Shown here: in pieces, positions 16,093 through 21,374 of the stretch | Position numbering within the stretch: position 1 is the stretch's first letter | Layout: the number at the start of each line of letters is the position of its first letter | DNA from: a virus | Direction: 5' to 3' (one strand) | Length of the DNA stretch: 28,125 bases | Virus record (IMG/VR): IMGVR_UViG_3300044701_000755 | Coordinates: 1 to 28,125 of that record | Translations under genes and position numbers: made by a program | The notes under the pieces: model-generated | What the model was told of the DNA's origin: nothing | What the model saw: the letters and a program-made list of their open reading frames with translations, nothing else | The model's database searches: none

Positions 16093-18408
16093 ATGGATTT
16101 TTTGAACTTTATCACAAATCTCGCGCCCGAGGGCGAGACGTTCCTAGTTGTCAGGCAAAAGCCACAGCTAAAGGATGGACAGATGCAGTACCACGCCGAC
16201 GGCGCGGTCAAGGCCACCTGGCCGGCGTTCTTGCCCACGCACAAAATGAAGGACGGGCAGTCTTGGTACGGCAACACCGCCAGCTTCATCGTTGACCGCT
16301 TCACCGACGGCAAGGTCAGCGCCTCGGCCGCCAACTGCGAGTACGTGCTCTGCATGGTGCTCGACGACGTGGGCGACCCAGAGAAGGCGCCCAAGACGCC
16401 GCCGCTGGCCCCGACGTGGATCATGGAGACGAGCGAGGGCAGCGTCCAGTGGGGCTACGCCTTCGGCCTGGACGACCAGCCGACCAAGGCCGAGTACAGC
16501 GCGGCCATCCTAGCGATCGCCGAGGCCGGCTACAGCGACCGGGGCGCGATCAACCCGGTCCGCAACTTCCGCTTGCCTGGCTCTATCAACATGAAGCCCG
16601 GCCGCAACAGCTTCGCCTCGCGCCTGGTCGAGTTTCACCCCGAGCGGCAGTTCACCCTACCCCAGATATGCGAGGCGCTCGGCGTCACCCCGGCCGAGGC
16701 CGGCGCCAACCCCTACCGCCCGATCCGCGTGTCCGACGACGGGGCCGACGACGTGCTGGCCTGGCTCTCCGGTCAGGGGTTAGTGCTGGCCAAGCCCAAC
16801 GCGCAGGGCTGGGCCGGCGTCATCTGCCCCAACAGTGCCGAGCACAGCGACGGCAACCCGGAGGGGCGCTACAACCCGTCCATGCGGGCGTTCTGCTGCC
16901 TGCACAGCCATTGCATCGATCTGGACAGCAATACGTTCCTCGCGTGGGTGGCCGAGCAGGGCGGCCCGTCCCACGCCCCCGGCCTGCGTGATGAGCTACT
17001 GGCGTCGATGATGGCCGGCGCGCTTGACAAGCTAGAGCCGACCAAGGCGTTCCCTGACGAGGCCAAGCGCGTCATTGCTGAAGTGGAGCGCAAGGAGCTT
17101 GGCCGCACCACGATGGCCGACTGGTACAAGCGGTTTTGCTACGTCCAAGAAGGCGACCACTACTTTGACCTGCAAGACCGCCGCGAGATCAGCCGCAGCA
17201 CCTTCAACGCGCTATTTCGGCACATCGAGTGCCGGTCACGGTTCGGCAAGAAGCCCAAGATTGAGGCGTCGTATTGCTTTGACGAGAACCGCCAAGAGAT
17301 GGGCGCCCGCGCCCTGGTCGGCATCACCTACGCCGCCGGCGAGGGGGTGCTCGTGGCGCGTGATGGCGACGTGTACGGCAACCGCTGGCGCGACGCCCGG
17401 CCGCCGATCGACGCCGATGCCGGCGCCGACGTCAGCCCCTGGCTGGCCCACTGCGCGGCGCTCATCCCCGAGGCGTCCGAGCGCGAGCACGTCTGGGACG
17501 TGATGGCCTATAAAGTCCAACACCCAGAGGTCAAGATCAACCACGCCGTGCTGCATGGTGGTGATCAGGGCTGTGGCAAGGATACGCTGTGGGCGCCGTT
17601 TATATGGGCCGTGTGCGGGCCGCAATTGAAAAACCGGGGGCTGCTCGACAATGACACGCTTGGGTCACAGTGGGGCTACGCGCTGGAGTCCGAAATCCTG
17701 ATCTTGAACGAACTGAAAGAACCCGAGGCCAAGGACCGCCGCGCCCTTGCCAACAAGCTCAAGCCCGTCATCGCCGCGCCGCCGGACATGCTCACGATCA
17801 ACCGCAAGGGGCTGCACCCATATGACAGTCTGAACCGCATGTTTGTCCTTGCGTTTTCCAATGACCCCGTGCCGATTTCGCTGGATTCGCAAGACCGTCG
17901 GTGGTTCGCGATCTGGTCTACCGCGCCCCGCATGGCCCCGGACGCCGCCGCGCGGCTGTGGGGCTGGTACAAGGCCGGCGGCTATGAGGCGATCGCCGCC
18001 TGGCTGCACGCCCGTGACGTCTCGGCGTTCAATCCGTCCGCCGCGCCGGCTTGGACTGAGTTCAAAGCGAACCTGGTCGAGCATGGCATGTCGATCGCCG
18101 AGTCCTACTTGGTCGAGATGATGCGCGCGCGTCGGGGTGAGTTCGCTAGGGGCGTTGTTGGCTCGCCCTTTCACGCCCTTTGCGACCGCGTGGCCGGCTC
18201 GGCGCCGTCTGGGGTCAAAGTGCCCCAAGCCGCGCTGCTACACGCGCTTAAAGAGGCCGGTTGGGTCAACCTCGGGCGGCTGGCGTCGGGCGACTACCCG
18301 AGCAAAAAGAATGTGTACTGTCACCCGTCGATGGTCGATCACACTAAGTCGGACCTGCGCCGGCTGTGCGAGGACACGCCAGCGCCGGCGATGGTGCGGG
18401 TGAAGTAA
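16093..18408 (+). CDS. Primase-helicase (PrimPol-like domain plus SF3-type ATPase)
   Basis: This encodes 771 residues, with GGAG seven bases before the ATG. The N-terminal third carries signatures of archaeo-eukaryotic-type primases: CMVLDDVGD, METSEGSVQWGYAF near 111-124 and RNFRLPGSINMKPGR near 157-171. A cysteine/histidine cluster from about 244 to 280 (ICPNSAEH, then FCCLHSHC) looks like a zinc site. The C-terminal part is a DUF5906-like superfamily 3 helicase: Walker A GGDQGCGKDTLW near 488, Walker B LILNELKEPE near 536, and the sensor/arginine-finger segment SQDRRWFAIWS near 599. It should unwind and prime phage DNA for the polymerase just upstream. Residue numbers are approximate. Confidence 0.92.
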   Translation: MDFLNFITNLAPEGETFLVVRQKPQLKDGQMQYHADGAVKATWPAFLPTHKMKDGQSWYGNTASFIVDRFTDGKVSASAANCEYVLCMVLDDVGDPEKAPKTPPLAPTWIMETSEGSVQWGYAFGLDDQPTKAEYSAAILAIAEAGYSDRGAINPVRNFRLPGSINMKPGRNSFASRLVEFHPERQFTLPQICEALGVTPAEAGANPYRPIRVSDDGADDVLAWLSGQGLVLAKPNAQGWAGVICPNSAEHSDGNPEGRYNPSMRAFCCLHSHCIDLDSNTFLAWVAEQGGPSHAPGLRDELLASMMAGALDKLEPTKAFPDEAKRVIAEVERKELGRTTMADWYKRFCYVQEGDHYFDLQDRREISRSTFNALFRHIECRSRFGKKPKIEASYCFDENRQEMGARALVGITYAAGEGVLVARDGDVYGNRWRDARPPIDADAGADVSPWLAHCAALIPEASEREHVWDVMAYKVQHPEVKINHAVLHGGDQGCGKDTLWAPFIWAVCGPQLKNRGLLDNDTLGSQWGYALESEILILNELKEPEAKDRRALANKLKPVIAAPPDMLTINRKGLHPYDSLNRMFVLAFSNDPVPISLDSQDRRWFAIWSTAPRMAPDAAARLWGWYKAGGYEAIAAWLHARDVSAFNPSAAPAWTEFKANLVEHGMSIAESYLVEMMRARRGEFARGVVGSPFHALCDRVAGSAPSGVKVPQAALLHALKEAGWVNLGRLASGDYPSKKNVYCHPSMVDHTKSDLRRLCEDTPAPAMVRVK

Positions 18409-18439
18409 AAAGAAAGGCCCGGCTGGTAAGGCCGGGCCT
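18404..18439 (-). terminator. Intrinsic terminator of the - strand operon
   Basis: AGGCCCGGC (18415-18423) pairs with GCCGGGCCT (18431-18439) around a seven-base loop. On the - strand it is followed by TTCTTTTTACT. It lies just after the last small gene of that operon and prevents run-on into the primase gene. No T tract follows on the + strand. Confidence 0.8.
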
Positions 18440-18453
18440 GAAGGGCAACTGCG

Positions 18454-18516
18454 TTAGAGATCGAGGAAGACCACTAGCAGTGCCACTAGTGTAACAGCAA
18501 TCAATCCTGCGACCAT
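18454..18516 (-). CDS. 20-residue membrane microprotein
   Basis: This is a 63-base gene. The ATG at 18516 has GAGGAAGG upstream with about six bases of spacing. The product is a single uninterrupted hydrophobic helix (VAGLIAVTLVALLVVF) ending in LDL, long enough to cross a membrane once. It overlaps the end of the upstream gene by 16 bases in another frame and is the last gene before the - strand terminator. A second microprotein of similar design lies before the terminase large subunit gene. Possible roles are regulation of lysis or modification of a host membrane protein. None can be shown here. Confidence 0.55.
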   Translation of the reverse strand: MVAGLIAVTLVALLVVFLDL

Positions 18517-18716
18517 ATCGCGCCTTCCTCGATTTGACCTATTAGATCGTTTCCGAGCAAAGGCAGGATATCAACGCCGCCGACCCTCGCGCTAGTCAGG
18601 TACGCGGCCGGCGGAAACGGCGGGTTGATCTCATCAGCCGTCTGACCGGGGTCGTATTCAAGGGTGCAGTCCAGTTCGATCTCGCCAAAGCGGTGCAGGT
18701 GGCCTATTGTTCGCAT
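18501..18716 (-). CDS. Small hypothetical protein (71 residues)
   Basis: GGAGG stands four to five bases before the ATG. The product (RTIGHLHRFGEIELDCTLEY and onward) looks like a small acidic beta-rich protein. It has a Pro-rich middle (INPPFPPAAY) and ends GQIEEGAIWSQD. There is no membrane span. It overlaps the upstream gene by 13 bases and the microprotein gene by 16. Function is unknown. Confidence 0.65.
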   Translation of the reverse strand: MRTIGHLHRFGEIELDCTLEYDPGQTADEINPPFPPAAYLTSARVGGVDILPLLGNDLIGQIEEGAIWSQD

Positions 18717-19000
18717 ACAACCTCCGGGACAGACGGGTCCAACATGGCCGCTGGCCGGTCCGCGTGCTCGTATGTGACCGGGATCAAAGGGGTGTTTAAG
18801 GCCGCGTATCGGCGCACGTATTCGGCCGTGCTCATACCCGGCGTGAAAACCGGATACTGACGCCGCACGGCCGTCTCCCGCTTGAGCTTGCGCCCTTTGC
18901 GGCCCTTGCTCTTATCGATCAGAGCTAGTAGCTCGCGCGTCGGTTCGGCGTTTTCGGGCTTGACAGTGAAAGTGGCGCGATTGTGGGTAATGGTGATCAT
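18704..19000 (-). CDS. Small hypothetical basic protein (98 residues)
   Basis: The ATG at 19000 overlaps the previous stop (ATGA) and has AAGGA about ten bases upstream. The N-terminus (ITITHNRATFTVKPENAEPT) looks beta-structured. It is followed by a very basic patch (KSKGRKGRKLKRETAVRRQY) and a helix with STAEYVRRYAAL. The basic patch could bind nucleic acid. I do not recognise the family. Confidence 0.65.
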   Translation of the reverse strand: MITITHNRATFTVKPENAEPTRELLALIDKSKGRKGRKLKRETAVRRQYPVFTPGMSTAEYVRRYAALNTPLIPVTYEHADRPAAMLDPSVPEVVCEQ

Positions 19001-19179
19001 GTTTCAATGTTCCTTGCGATGATGTACTGGTCGACGGCATCCGCTACTGGCGTGCCGTGTAGGTAGTAGTACCGGGCCGCGTCCCAGTCTATGCGGCCGG
19101 CCAGGCGCGGTACGCGGGTTAGCAGCGCGTCGGTGAATTGCGCCAGCCAGTCGGCTTGGCGTTGGGCTTTGGTTTTCAT
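18997..19179 (-). CDS. Small hypothetical helical protein (60 residues)
   Basis: I choose the ATG at 19179 because it overlaps the stop of the membrane protein gene before it (ATGA). Another ATG lies six bases upstream, but neither has a strong binding site. The product (KTKAQRQADWLAQFTDALLT, then IDWDAARYYYLHGTPVADAV) is helical, with a YYY run. Function is unknown. Confidence 0.6.
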   Translation of the reverse strand: MKTKAQRQADWLAQFTDALLTRVPRLAGRIDWDAARYYYLHGTPVADAVDQYIIARNIET

Positions 19180-19313
19180 GGCCATAGGATGTCAAAATAG
19201 GCCAGTGCCAGCATGGCCAGCACTATCCCAATGGCCAGGGCCGTCAACACGTCCCGGACCGGCTCGGGGCGCTGCACCGGCGCCGGTTTGTAGTGCTCAC
19301 GGTGCGCGCTCAT
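19176..19313 (-). CDS. 45-residue single-span membrane protein
   Basis: This small gene is easy to miss. The ATG at 19313 overlaps the upstream stop (ATGA), and its own stop overlaps the next ATG the same way. The N-terminal 22 residues are polar and basic (SAHREHYKPAPVQRPEPVRD). Residues 23-43 form one hydrophobic span (VLTALAIGIVLAMLALAYFD). The product is probably an inner membrane protein. Chained start-stop overlaps on both sides are the main support. Confidence 0.6.
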   Translation of the reverse strand: MSAHREHYKPAPVQRPEPVRDVLTALAIGIVLAMLALAYFDILWP

Positions 19314-19447
19314 AGTCCACTCACCCGAAAGCACCGGCCGTCCGATAGGCGCTCGACGTCGACGGTCCCGGCGCGCCGAATGGCGAGAATGCGAACCCGC
19401 TCGGGGCGCCCGAATAGGTGCATGGTAAGAGTTTGATTTACTTGCAT
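19310..19447 (-). CDS. Small hypothetical protein (45 residues)
   Basis: I choose the ATG at 19447 (QVNQTLTMHLFGRPERVRIL), which follows the leader motif TAGAGTAAA also found before the 20262 gene. An ATG at 19504 would add 19 residues spanning a palindrome and has no binding site. The product looks like a short beta-rich protein ending DGRCFRVSGL. Its stop overlaps the start of the 45-residue membrane protein. Function is unknown. Confidence 0.55.
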   Translation of the reverse strand: MQVNQTLTMHLFGRPERVRILAIRRAGTVDVERLSDGRCFRVSGL

Positions 19448-19463
19448 GGCGTTTACTCTACTG

Positions 19464-19484
19464 TGGCCGGACGGATTGTCCGCA
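19464..19484. repeat. Palindrome copy A (CGGAC-N5-GTCCG)
   Basis: This 21-base element contains the inverted repeat CGGAC/GTCCG around GGATT. A copy matching at 19 of 21 positions lies at 19550-19570, inside the 3' end of the cysteine-rich protein gene. Copy A lies in the short non-coding gap between two - strand genes and could be an operator, a hairpin that adjusts downstream expression, or a duplication relic. Confidence 0.6.
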
Positions 19485-19515
19485 GCATAGCCCGATCGGG
19501 CCATGCTACTGAAAA

Positions 19516-20262
19516 TCAGACGACCGCGATCGCAATCACCCGGCGTTTATGGCCGGACGCATGGTCCGCAATCACGATATCGCGCGCCTGTATCGACGTG
19601 CCCGAGCATAGGGTGCATTTGGCGCACGTCGACCGTTTGCCCGCTTCGGCCGATGCCGGGCATGAGGCCTCGCCCGCTTGTACGTCAAGCCCGATACTGA
19701 CACGAAAAACCCGCATGCCCAACAAGTTAGCCCGCGCAGCTTCGTCGATTGTGTCGGCCGATGCCATCACAAGGGGCGCCCATGCGGCCGCATCAAAATC
19801 GGGCCTTTGCCACTGATGAGTGTAGCCCCGACGGCCGGTCGCGTAGCGGGTGATTTGCGCCCACATTGTCACTGGCGCAGCGGCCGGGTCCCCATAAGTG
19901 CCCAAGCGCACGATCTTACCGGCTAGGGCTTTGGCAATGGTTGCAGCATCGGCGCGGGTATAGCGGCCGCGCCTGTATGCTTCATAGACTGACCGGACCG
20001 AGCGACCGACGTTAACGTAACACGGCGCCTGACCGTTTTGCTTTGCCAGTAGCGGCCGGTGCGGGCAGTCACCGCAAATGGATTCGTCGGCGCCGTTTTT
20101 GAGGGCTTCGACGGGCGCGACGTCGGCGCGAATGATGAAGGACTGCACGATCGCGCCAGTCTTAGCGTTGTCGGACCCGTCGAGCTTGTTGACGATTACG
20201 ACAATGGGCGCGCCGTCGATCAGGGACGGGCCTTCGTATGCGATGTAACCTAGTGCTTTCAT
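19516..20262 (-). CDS. Cysteine-rich conserved phage protein (DUF7227-like)
   Basis: This encodes 248 residues from an ATG with AAAGG six bases upstream. It starts MKALGYIAYEGPSLIDGAPI, an opening I associate with a widespread phage family of unknown function. Cysteine motifs stand out: CGDCPHRP near residue 63, a single C in APCYVNVG near 81, and CPASAEAGKRSTCAKCTLCS near 206-225. The central segment has VRLGTYGDPAAAP, GYTHQWQRPDF and LVMASADTIDEA. The spacing suggests zinc or an iron-sulphur cluster. The conserved GTYGDP and YTHQW segments suggest an enzyme. It is the first gene of its operon, behind a promoter. The family number is from memory and should be treated as tentative. Confidence 0.8.
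   Translation of the reverse strand: MKALGYIAYEGPSLIDGAPIVVIVNKLDGSDNAKTGAIVQSFIIRADVAPVEALKNGADESICGDCPHRPLLAKQNGQAPCYVNVGRSVRSVYEAYRRGRYTRADAATIAKALAGKIVRLGTYGDPAAAPVTMWAQITRYATGRRGYTHQWQRPDFDAAAWAPLVMASADTIDEAARANLLGMRVFRVSIGLDVQAGEASCPASAEAGKRSTCAKCTLCSGTSIQARDIVIADHASGHKRRVIAIAVV
19550..19570. repeat. Palindrome copy B, within coding sequence
   Basis: This is the second copy of the CGGAC-N5-GTCCG element, with centre GCATG. It lies in the 3' end of the cysteine-rich protein gene, 86 bases from copy A. Confidence 0.6.
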
Positions 20263-20306
20263 GGTTTGCCTTTACTCTATTGCATGGCGTTGTTGCCATG
20301 TGCGAG

Positions 20307-20335
20307 ATCATAAAGGATTCTTTTACACAATGCAA
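20307..20335 (-). promoter_or_regulatory. Promoter of the 20262-18454 operon
   Basis: On the - strand TTGCAT (20335-20330) and TATGAT (20312-20307) are exactly 17 bases apart, 44 bases before the first ATG. The -10 is the same TATGAT as at both promoters near 12250. Confidence 0.65.
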
Positions 20336-20566
20336 CACCCTTACAATTTAGTCGGGATTAGGTCAGTGTGCGGTTAGGGATTGTCATGTTTGCGGGGCGA
20401 AGTGACCCAAGCGCGCCCACAGAGAAAACGGGGCTTTTGGGTCATTTTGTCATGTTAGTGTATGGTCTAGAAAGAGATAGATATATTGTATACAGTATGG
20501 TGTACAGCCTCGACTGCACCGGCGTCGCCAGCAGCCCCAAAGGGGGTCGAGCGATTTCAACTCGAT

Positions 20567-20591
20567 GACAAAATGACCTAAATGACCCAAA
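20567..20591 (+). repeat. Iteron array 2 (TGAC-family units)
   Basis: Three adjoining units read TGACAAAA (20567), TGACCTAAA (20574) and TGACCCAAA (20583-20591). The first is degenerate and shares its last base with the next. The unit TGACCCAA also occurs at 20403, 20640 and 20649, and inverted at 20437 and 20612. Confidence 0.8.
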
Positions 20592-20611
20592 GCCTGCGCG
20601 GCCCATGACTG

Positions 20612-20656
20612 TTGGGTCATCTGGGTCATGGCCCGGTCATGACCCAAATGACCCAA
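20612..20656. repeat. 19-bp inverted repeat made of iterons
   Basis: TTGGGTCATCTGGGTCATG (20612-20630) is complementary at 18 of 19 positions to CATGACCCAAATGACCCAA (20638-20656), with the seven-base loop GCCCGGT. Each arm carries two iteron units, so the hairpin is two back-to-back iteron pairs. It could extrude as a cruciform or serve as a symmetric binding site. Confidence 0.85.
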
Positions 20657-20709
20657 GCCTGCGCGGCCAGGTGCTGGCCGGCCGATCGACCCTGAGTCGC
20701 ATGACAAAC

Positions 20710-20745
20710 TGACCCAAATGACCCAAATGACCCAAATGACCCAAA
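20710..20745 (+). repeat. Iteron array 3: four perfect TGACCCAAA units
   Basis: Four identical 9-bp units stand in tandem at 20710, 20719, 20728 and 20737. A degenerate unit TGACAAAC precedes them at 20702, just as TGACAAAA precedes array 2. A 9-bp period places successive sites on rotated faces of the helix. Confidence 0.88.
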
Positions 20746-20795
20746 GCCCGTGACCGGCCGACCACCTGCCCGACCGCCTGCCCGACCGCCGACCA

Positions 20796-20829
20796 GGGGG
20801 GGGAGGGGGGAGGGGGAGGGGGGAGGGGG
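20796..20829 (+). other. Five-tract G-run, potential G-quadruplex
   Basis: The tract is G8-A-G6-A-G5-A-G6-A-G5, purine only for 34 bases. Single-base loops and tracts of at least five G make a very stable parallel quadruplex likely on the + strand. The same tract could form triplex DNA or cause sequencing errors in run length. Confidence 0.85.
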
Positions 20830-20897
20830 CCGACGGGGTGAAGGTCACAGCAGCGGAGGGGCCGATAAAACTTTTTTCTTTTTTCAAAAATTTTTGG

Positions 20898-20903
20898 TAT
20901 ATT
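20898..20903 (+). promoter_or_regulatory. Candidate -10 box of the terminase operon
   Basis: TATATT ends six bases before the ATG at 20910, behind a long A/T-rich run. Transcription would begin at or beside the ATG, giving a leaderless message, which fits the absence of a Shine-Dalgarno site. No convincing -35 is seen. Confidence 0.4.
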
Positions 20904-20909
20904 CCGCGC

Positions 20910-21374
20910 ATGTTCGAGACTTTGCCGTATGAGCCGCGTCAGTTGCGTGCGACTGAGGATCGGCTCCATCGCATATACAAGGCTGCCAAGCGCGGCCTCA
21001 AGGGCGACGCTCTCGCGTTGGCCGCCGGCATGTTGCCCAAGGAGTACCAGCTACTCAAGCAGTTCGACGAGATCGCGGAGTACGCCGAACTCAAGGGCCG
21101 CGCCGAGGGCGAGATGGAGATGAGCGAGTTGCTGCACCAGGCAGCGCAGCAGGGCGACGCCAAGGCGGCGCTGGCGATCTTGCAGAACGTCCACGGCTGG
21201 GTCGCCAAGCAGGCCATCAGTGTGGACGTCAACCAGCAGATCAGCATCACGGCGGCGCTACAAGAGGCGCAGCGCCGCGTACTGGACGTCACCGACGTAG
21301 AGGCTATCAATGAAAATACTTCTGTGGATCGCCTTATTTCTAGTGATCATCTGGCTCGTCAGCCCGCTGTTTGA
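20910..21374 (+). CDS. terS: Probable terminase small subunit
   Basis: This encodes 154 residues. The start MFETLPYEPRQLRATEDRLH fits conserved-looking coding, while a longer reading from 20838 would run through the A/T-rich promoter region. The protein is helical. Residues 12-60 could form the DNA-binding helices, including AAKRGLKGDALALAAGMLPK, and the rest includes an Ala-rich oligomerisation helix (ELLHQAAQQGDAKAALAILQ) and WVAKQAISVDVNQQISITAA, typical of phage small terminases. It would recognise the packaging site and activate the large subunit encoded next. The last 22 codons are shared, out of frame, with a membrane microprotein gene. No Shine-Dalgarno site precedes the ATG. Confidence 0.82.
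   Translation: MFETLPYEPRQLRATEDRLHRIYKAAKRGLKGDALALAAGMLPKEYQLLKQFDEIAEYAELKGRAEGEMEMSELLHQAAQQGDAKAALAILQNVHGWVAKQAISVDVNQQISITAALQEAQRRVLDVTDVEAINENTSVDRLISSDHLARQPAV

Follow-up and report, generated by a model that had tools for sequence, protein, structure and literature searches.

The alpha protein of phage P4 is a single protein that combines a primase and an SF3-type helicase with a winged helix, through which it binds the repeats of its origin, ori/crr (PMC4234260). The Rep proteins of SaPIs (SaPIbov1, SaPI5) and Cch2 of SCCmec are self-loading helicases whose C-terminal domains bind their own iterons (PMC7581432). In the RepA protein of PLE satellites, the DNA-binding domain covaries with the origin, and the two are exchanged as a module (PMC8263062). 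In geminiviruses, the position and pattern of the iterons are conserved and their sequences differ among close relatives, matched to the cognate Rep (PMC12548392). The locus described here, in a group of uncultured tailed phages, is best read as an iteron origin that would be opened by a self-loading primase-helicase similar to P4 alpha and SaPI Rep, and that appears to have switched its specificity repeatedly.

The window, a stretch of 28,125 bp that constitutes an entire IMG/VR virus record, is probably a fragment of a 36-38-kb phage genome, and it contains the tailed-phage genes for an exonuclease (DUF2800), DNA polymerase A and a primase-helicase together with terS, terL and tail genes (Table 1). 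The preliminary description had placed eight forward and at least two inverted exact copies of one word in a non-coding region, and all ten were confirmed as TGACCCAA. They occupy 342 bp (20403-20744) in the gap that separates terS from minus-strand gene 19516-20262, with forward copies starting at 20403, 20583, 20640, 20649, 20710, 20719, 20728 and 20737 and inverted copies at 20437 and 20612. The whole window contains 14 copies, versus 0.72 expected and a maximum of 3 in 100 shuffles, and 10 of these 14 fall within the 342 bp. An additional inverted copy, TGGGTCA, imperfect in its last base, lies at ~20622. Tandem copies are spaced 9 bp apart (TRF period 9, 20705-20745), the repeat having the form TGACCCAAA in the window. 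The degenerate TGACAAA units said to open both forward arrays are real (20566 and 20702), and a third, on the minus strand at 20446, opens the left inverted group. The order of the array is thus an inverted group at the left, a palindrome in the middle and forward arrays at the right. As in iteron origins, short tandem direct repeats lie in non-coding DNA, and an A+T-rich element adjoins them.

Table 1. Positions of features in and around the repeat array of the window.
Feature	Position	Strand	Comment
Primase-helicase	16093..18408	+	771 aa; DUF5906 / DNA primase PHROGs; proposed initiator and iteron reader
C-terminal domain, residues 645-771	18025..18405	+	winged-helix-like in AlphaFold models
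Wing tip, codons 731-738 (ASGDYPSK)	18283..18306	+	beta-hairpin turn; residues covary with iteron bases
Small genes	18501-20262	-	between primase-helicase and array; include gene 19516-20262
Lone forward iteron TGACCCAA	20403..20410	+	left edge
Left inverted group	20430..20454	-	exact TGACCCAA at 20437-20444; opener TGACAAA at 20446-20452, ahead on the minus strand
A+T-rich segment	20445..20510	.	separates the inverted from the forward iterons; 67% AT; candidate duplex-unwinding element
First forward array	20566..20591	+	TGACAAA-A-TGACCTAA-A-TGACCCAA
Palindrome	20612..20656	.	two inverted and two forward iterons; 22-nt arms; 40/45 positions symmetric
Second forward array	20702..20745	+	opener TGACAAAC, then four TGACCCAA, 9-bp period
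G-rich run (GGGGGGAGGGGG...)	20796..20831	+	between array and terS; kept in 137/187 relatives
terS candidate	20910..21374	+	ATG at 20910; excluded as specificity reader
terL	start 21381		

DnaA boxes are usual but not universal at plasmid iteron origins, and to our knowledge they are not required in P4-type systems. None was found inside the array, and the one match to TTWTNCACA in the window (1.2 expected) lies outside it, at 20321. Cumulative GC skew, which the preliminary description had proposed as a check, was uninformative, with extrema that were not consistently at the array in the window or in longer relatives. The array region folds better than its shuffles (z -5.2), and this extra folding results from the occurrence of iterons in both orientations; a large, pRN1-like stem-loop origin was rejected on these grounds, the main palindrome having a counterpart in just 31 of 154 relatives. 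A LexA-box-like palindrome, CTGT-N8-ACAG, was present in the array region of 42 of 187 relatives and in none of 202 primase 3' regions of comparable size; the window carries a degenerate version (20490-20510).

Relatives were gathered through TerL matches, and ~200 related uncultured phages were compared, all of the close ones being metagenomic contigs. The primase was matched by 77 phage-collection records, every one at <60% identity, among which only the environmental record MW202483.1 aligned over most of its length. In bacterial genomes, a single-sequence query returned no close relatives and a profile query returned 10 relatives, nearly all of them lake metagenome bins; such bins, Rhodoferax included, are the nearest hints of a host. 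One contig (L003; G001, L439-L441) is 53.6 kb long, versus 36-38 kb in full-length relatives, which may reflect either additional sequence or a misassembly.

Of ~190 related phages, all uncultured, most have a repeat cluster at the same position upstream of terS. In the 187 phages with terS in view, a spacing of 9 bp between neighbours on the same strand was counted 331 times, and no other spacing came near this figure. The median forward copy has, on average, 88% of the inverted copies on its left. In 115 of 142 relatives, as in the window, the 50-mer richest in A+T (mean 79% AT, versus 44% overall) separates the inverted from the forward copies. The unit is also largely restricted to the array site in relatives; the preliminary description had named equal frequency elsewhere in the genome as an outcome that would refute its reading. 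Its expectation of conservation next to terS held for the position and the 9-bp period but not for the unit sequence, which has diversified. The word is TGACCCAA in the window, L003 and L012, TTGTCCAC in L004 (repeat form TTGTCCACA) and L009, TGACCCAT in L008, TAGCCCAC in L018, TGACTCAC in L024, TTGCCTAC in L078 and TAGCCAAC in L081, with others elsewhere, and it can differ even between phages with 100% identity in both TerS and TerL. Unit calling relied on a set pattern plus the most frequent 8-mer, so that phages with two words are assigned a single one. The architecture of the array therefore appears to be constrained while its word is diversified. Six relatives (L016, L037, L061, L062, L066 and L067) have a second mini-array, of the GCCCACATGACCCACATG type, in the terS start region ~450 bp upstream of terL, possibly for autoregulation.

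The helicase core of the primase-helicase is of the SF3/D5 type, with a Pfam match to DUF5906 and Foldseek matches to the NrS-1 helicase, SaPI5 Rep (7ola), PriRep1 (7pds) and D5-type structures. NrS-1 polymerase (6k9c) is both the best structural match of the helicase part and its only PDB sequence match (residues 460-664, E 2e-12), and is followed structurally by D5-type, AEP primase-helicase and SaPI5 Rep chains. The PHROGs label of DNA primase comes via the helicase part, whole-chain alignments to AEP primase-helicases have low TM-scores, and no match to the TOPRIM family was found in the protein. Searches with the C-terminal domain found no Pfam or PDB sequence match, and its winged-helix name rests on topology, since Foldseek with the isolated domain gave no significant PDB match (best E 0.075, MarR-type winged helices). 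In the AlphaFold model (51 sequences, mean pLDDT 84.9), residues 731-738 lie in the turn that joins strand 725-730 to strand 739-743, and this wing hairpin (725-743) follows a helix at 712-721; the domain modelled alone gave the same structural elements. In L012 and L136 the primase frame departs from that of relatives after residue ~761 and extends past the usual stop, with the wing intact. In the records behind L018, L062 and L029 (G006, G014 and G008) the primase match is broken by one TAA, and the L018 frame stops shortly after the wing.

Comparison of primases with iteron units shows that the primase-helicase, through wing tip residues 731-738, tracks the unit in a repeated joint change resembling that of lock and key. 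Within clades, the primase columns most informative on the unit were 749, 733 and 736, then 734 and 731; column 749, despite its high score, falls outside the wing. In a training set of 112 phages, Arg733 occurred with C at unit position 8 (C8) in 38 of 40 cases and C8 never occurred without Arg733; Gly733 occurred with A8 in 41 of 41; and Asp736 occurred with T4 in 21 of 25, T4 never occurring without Asp736. The Arg733/C8 and Asp736/T4 rules were fixed on these 112 phages before three further scans fetched new loci. Among the new non-redundant phages, the first rule was correct in 105 of 106, a set composed mostly of Arg733 phages (90/106), and C8 was absent from all 16 phages that lack Arg733; the second was correct in 94 of 106, with Glu736 alongside T4 in 4 of the 12 misses. 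Over 202 non-redundant phages, Arg733 and C8 agree in 199 and Asp/Glu736 and T4 in 190 (counting Glu like Asp), compared with maxima of 191 and 178 in 2000 within-clade shuffles of the units. The position-4 rule is broken in the other 12 phages, and some Arg733 phages have mixed units, such as TGACCCAC alongside TAGCCAAC. A TerL tree has 27 changes of residue 733 and as many of base 8, of which 26 coincide on a branch; a tree built from the primase body has 18 changes, 16 of them coinciding in branch and also in direction. When used to predict shared bases 4 and 8, residues 731-737 gave an AUC of 0.87, versus 0.73 for the rest of the primase, 0.65-0.66 for TerS, TerL and PolA, and 0.52-0.66 for the small genes.

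Switches between near-identical genomes point to the same residues. L004 has TerS and TerL 100% identical to those of the window and TTGTCCAC iterons, and 22 of the 35 differences between the two primases in the compared part lie within the last ~45 residues. The spacer between primase-helicase and array (18409-20262) is a hotspot of variable small minus-strand genes that differ among near-identical phages. In L137 the spacer genes are retained (18501-20262, 76-91% DNA identity), but the primase C-terminus on one side and the array on the other have been replaced. L003, L135, L139 and L178 show the converse, with much of the spacer exchanged and these two segments kept, indicating that two segments ~2 kb apart switch jointly and that the intervening DNA need not. 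Near-identical switches in two clades (that of the window and that of L019, L020, L048, L050 and L070) pair a KSR..D wing with TTGTCCAC, and L447, from another collection, has a KSRRHD wing and 10 copies of TTGTCCAC. The same wing and word in two clades may reflect convergence or recombination of a shared module. In the open-access literature, we did not find this wing/iteron covariation described; similar switching was found on a small scale only in PLE satellites, and in unrelated plant viruses.

Repeats located directly upstream of terS could instead form a cos- or pac-type packaging site recognized by the product of the neighbouring gene, the small terminase subunit; other phages do have repeated terminase-binding sites close to terS (e.g., R sites, lambda cosB). 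TerS does not set the specificity of the array, however, as L004 and the window have 100% identical TerS proteins and entirely different repeats; among phage pairs with a TerS identity of 97% or more, just 54% have bases 4 and 8 in common; and assembled relatives begin at varying positions relative to the array, so that no fixed end is visible there. We regard packaging as a highly improbable function of the array. TerL, identical in L004 despite the different word, is likewise excluded as the source of specificity. An operator array, through which a small minus-strand regulator would control divergent promoters on both sides, would fit a location between divergent transcription units with small genes adjoining, but many array-bearing relatives lack the small genes, and these genes do not predict the array sequence (m18704 has an AUC of 0.52, and m19516 is present in 37 of 202). 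In addition, no sigma-70-like promoter was found in 20200-20990, although this is a weak test, and such a role seems very unlikely. The preliminary description had named both the primase-helicase and the small minus-strand proteins as candidate readers; the covariation favors the former, while the latter are gained and lost independently with the unit unchanged, making them unlikely readers if not excluded ones.

A further possibility is that the primase-helicase reads the array mainly for sequence-specific priming of a single-stranded template, autoregulation or copy-number control rather than for origin melting. NrS-1 polymerase, the closest solved relative, begins synthesis at the template motif TTTGGTTA or GTGG (PMC8718748), the complements of the window and L004 units are TTTGGGTCA and GTGGACAA, and some relatives have the extra mini-array at the terS promoter. 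The NrS-1 motif, however, is read by a helix-bundle domain near the N-terminus, whereas specificity here maps to the C-terminal wing, and an A+T-rich core flanked by an inverted array on one side and direct arrays on the other suits the binding and opening of double-stranded DNA. We therefore consider a use other than melting unlikely, if less so than packaging or an operator. That iterons are bound by a phage initiator, as the preliminary description proposed, is the best explanation and is supported by the wing-tip covariation.

The repeat cluster is very probably the replication origin of the phage, and a reading in which its 9-bp iterons are bound by the winged-helix-like C-terminal domain of the primase-helicase is, in our judgment, likely to be correct. 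The covariation supports iteron-binding specificity of this domain well, and would be explained by physical binding. Wing tip 731-738 would read the variable bases of the unit: Arg733 would select C8, probably by touching the opposite G, a contact suggested by the general preference of Arg for G; A8 goes with Gly733, T4 with Asp or Glu736, and C4 with other residues at 736. By analogy with P4 alpha, SaPI Rep and Cch2 (PMC4234260, PMC7581432), subunits would bind the left (inverted) and right (forward) groups in opposite orientation, flanking the A+T-rich core, and two helicase rings would assemble in a head-to-head loading layout and melt the A+T-rich segment; the primase-helicase would then prime and the phage polymerase A extend. 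The 9-bp period differs from the helical repeat, which counts against this arrangement because adjacent subunits would be rotated relative to one another.

The proposed system would share with P4 alpha the union, in one protein, of a putative primase, an SF3-type helicase and a winged-helix-like binder of origin repeats. The two differ in that P4 has a primase of bacterial TOPRIM type, and in that the present protein comes from tailed phages that encode a PolA of their own, with different repeats and many reader specificity types. Recognition of iterons through the C-terminus would be shared with SaPI Rep and Cch2, but in SaPIs and SCCmec the origin follows immediately after the helicase gene, whereas here it would lie ~2 kb away, past a variable spacer and beside terS, its 9-bp units set out in a mirrored layout; a base-by-residue relation was not found described for those proteins in the open-access literature. 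NrS-1, with a genome of 37 kb, has a Tail domain of novel fold that is important for hexamer assembly, and origin reading by this domain is not reported in that work (PMC7102993). RepA of PLEs differs in having a RepA_N fold and no enzyme domains, with two groups among five PLEs and ~30-bp semi-palindromic iterons, and geminivirus Rep is an unrelated rolling-circle Rep of plant single-stranded DNA viruses.

It is conceivable, though somewhat short of probable, that these phages fall into replication-specificity types, in which matched wing tip/iteron pairs under diversifying selection are swapped between near-identical genomes and keep co-infecting relatives, satellites or origin-targeting nucleases from using or attacking each other's origin, the wing tip providing a base-by-base code readable from sequence. 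One origin type of PLE satellites is attacked by an origin-directed phage nuclease (PMC8263062), and by analogy, switching could plausibly be driven by an advantage in escaping parasites, nucleases or cross-use among co-infecting relatives. An abundant, uncultured and mostly freshwater phage group thereby gains a proposed origin, initiator and recognition code from sequence alone, and a C-terminal domain without a family name gains a proposed function. The dozens of natural joint switches would allow direct study of how and why a replicon changes its origin specificity.
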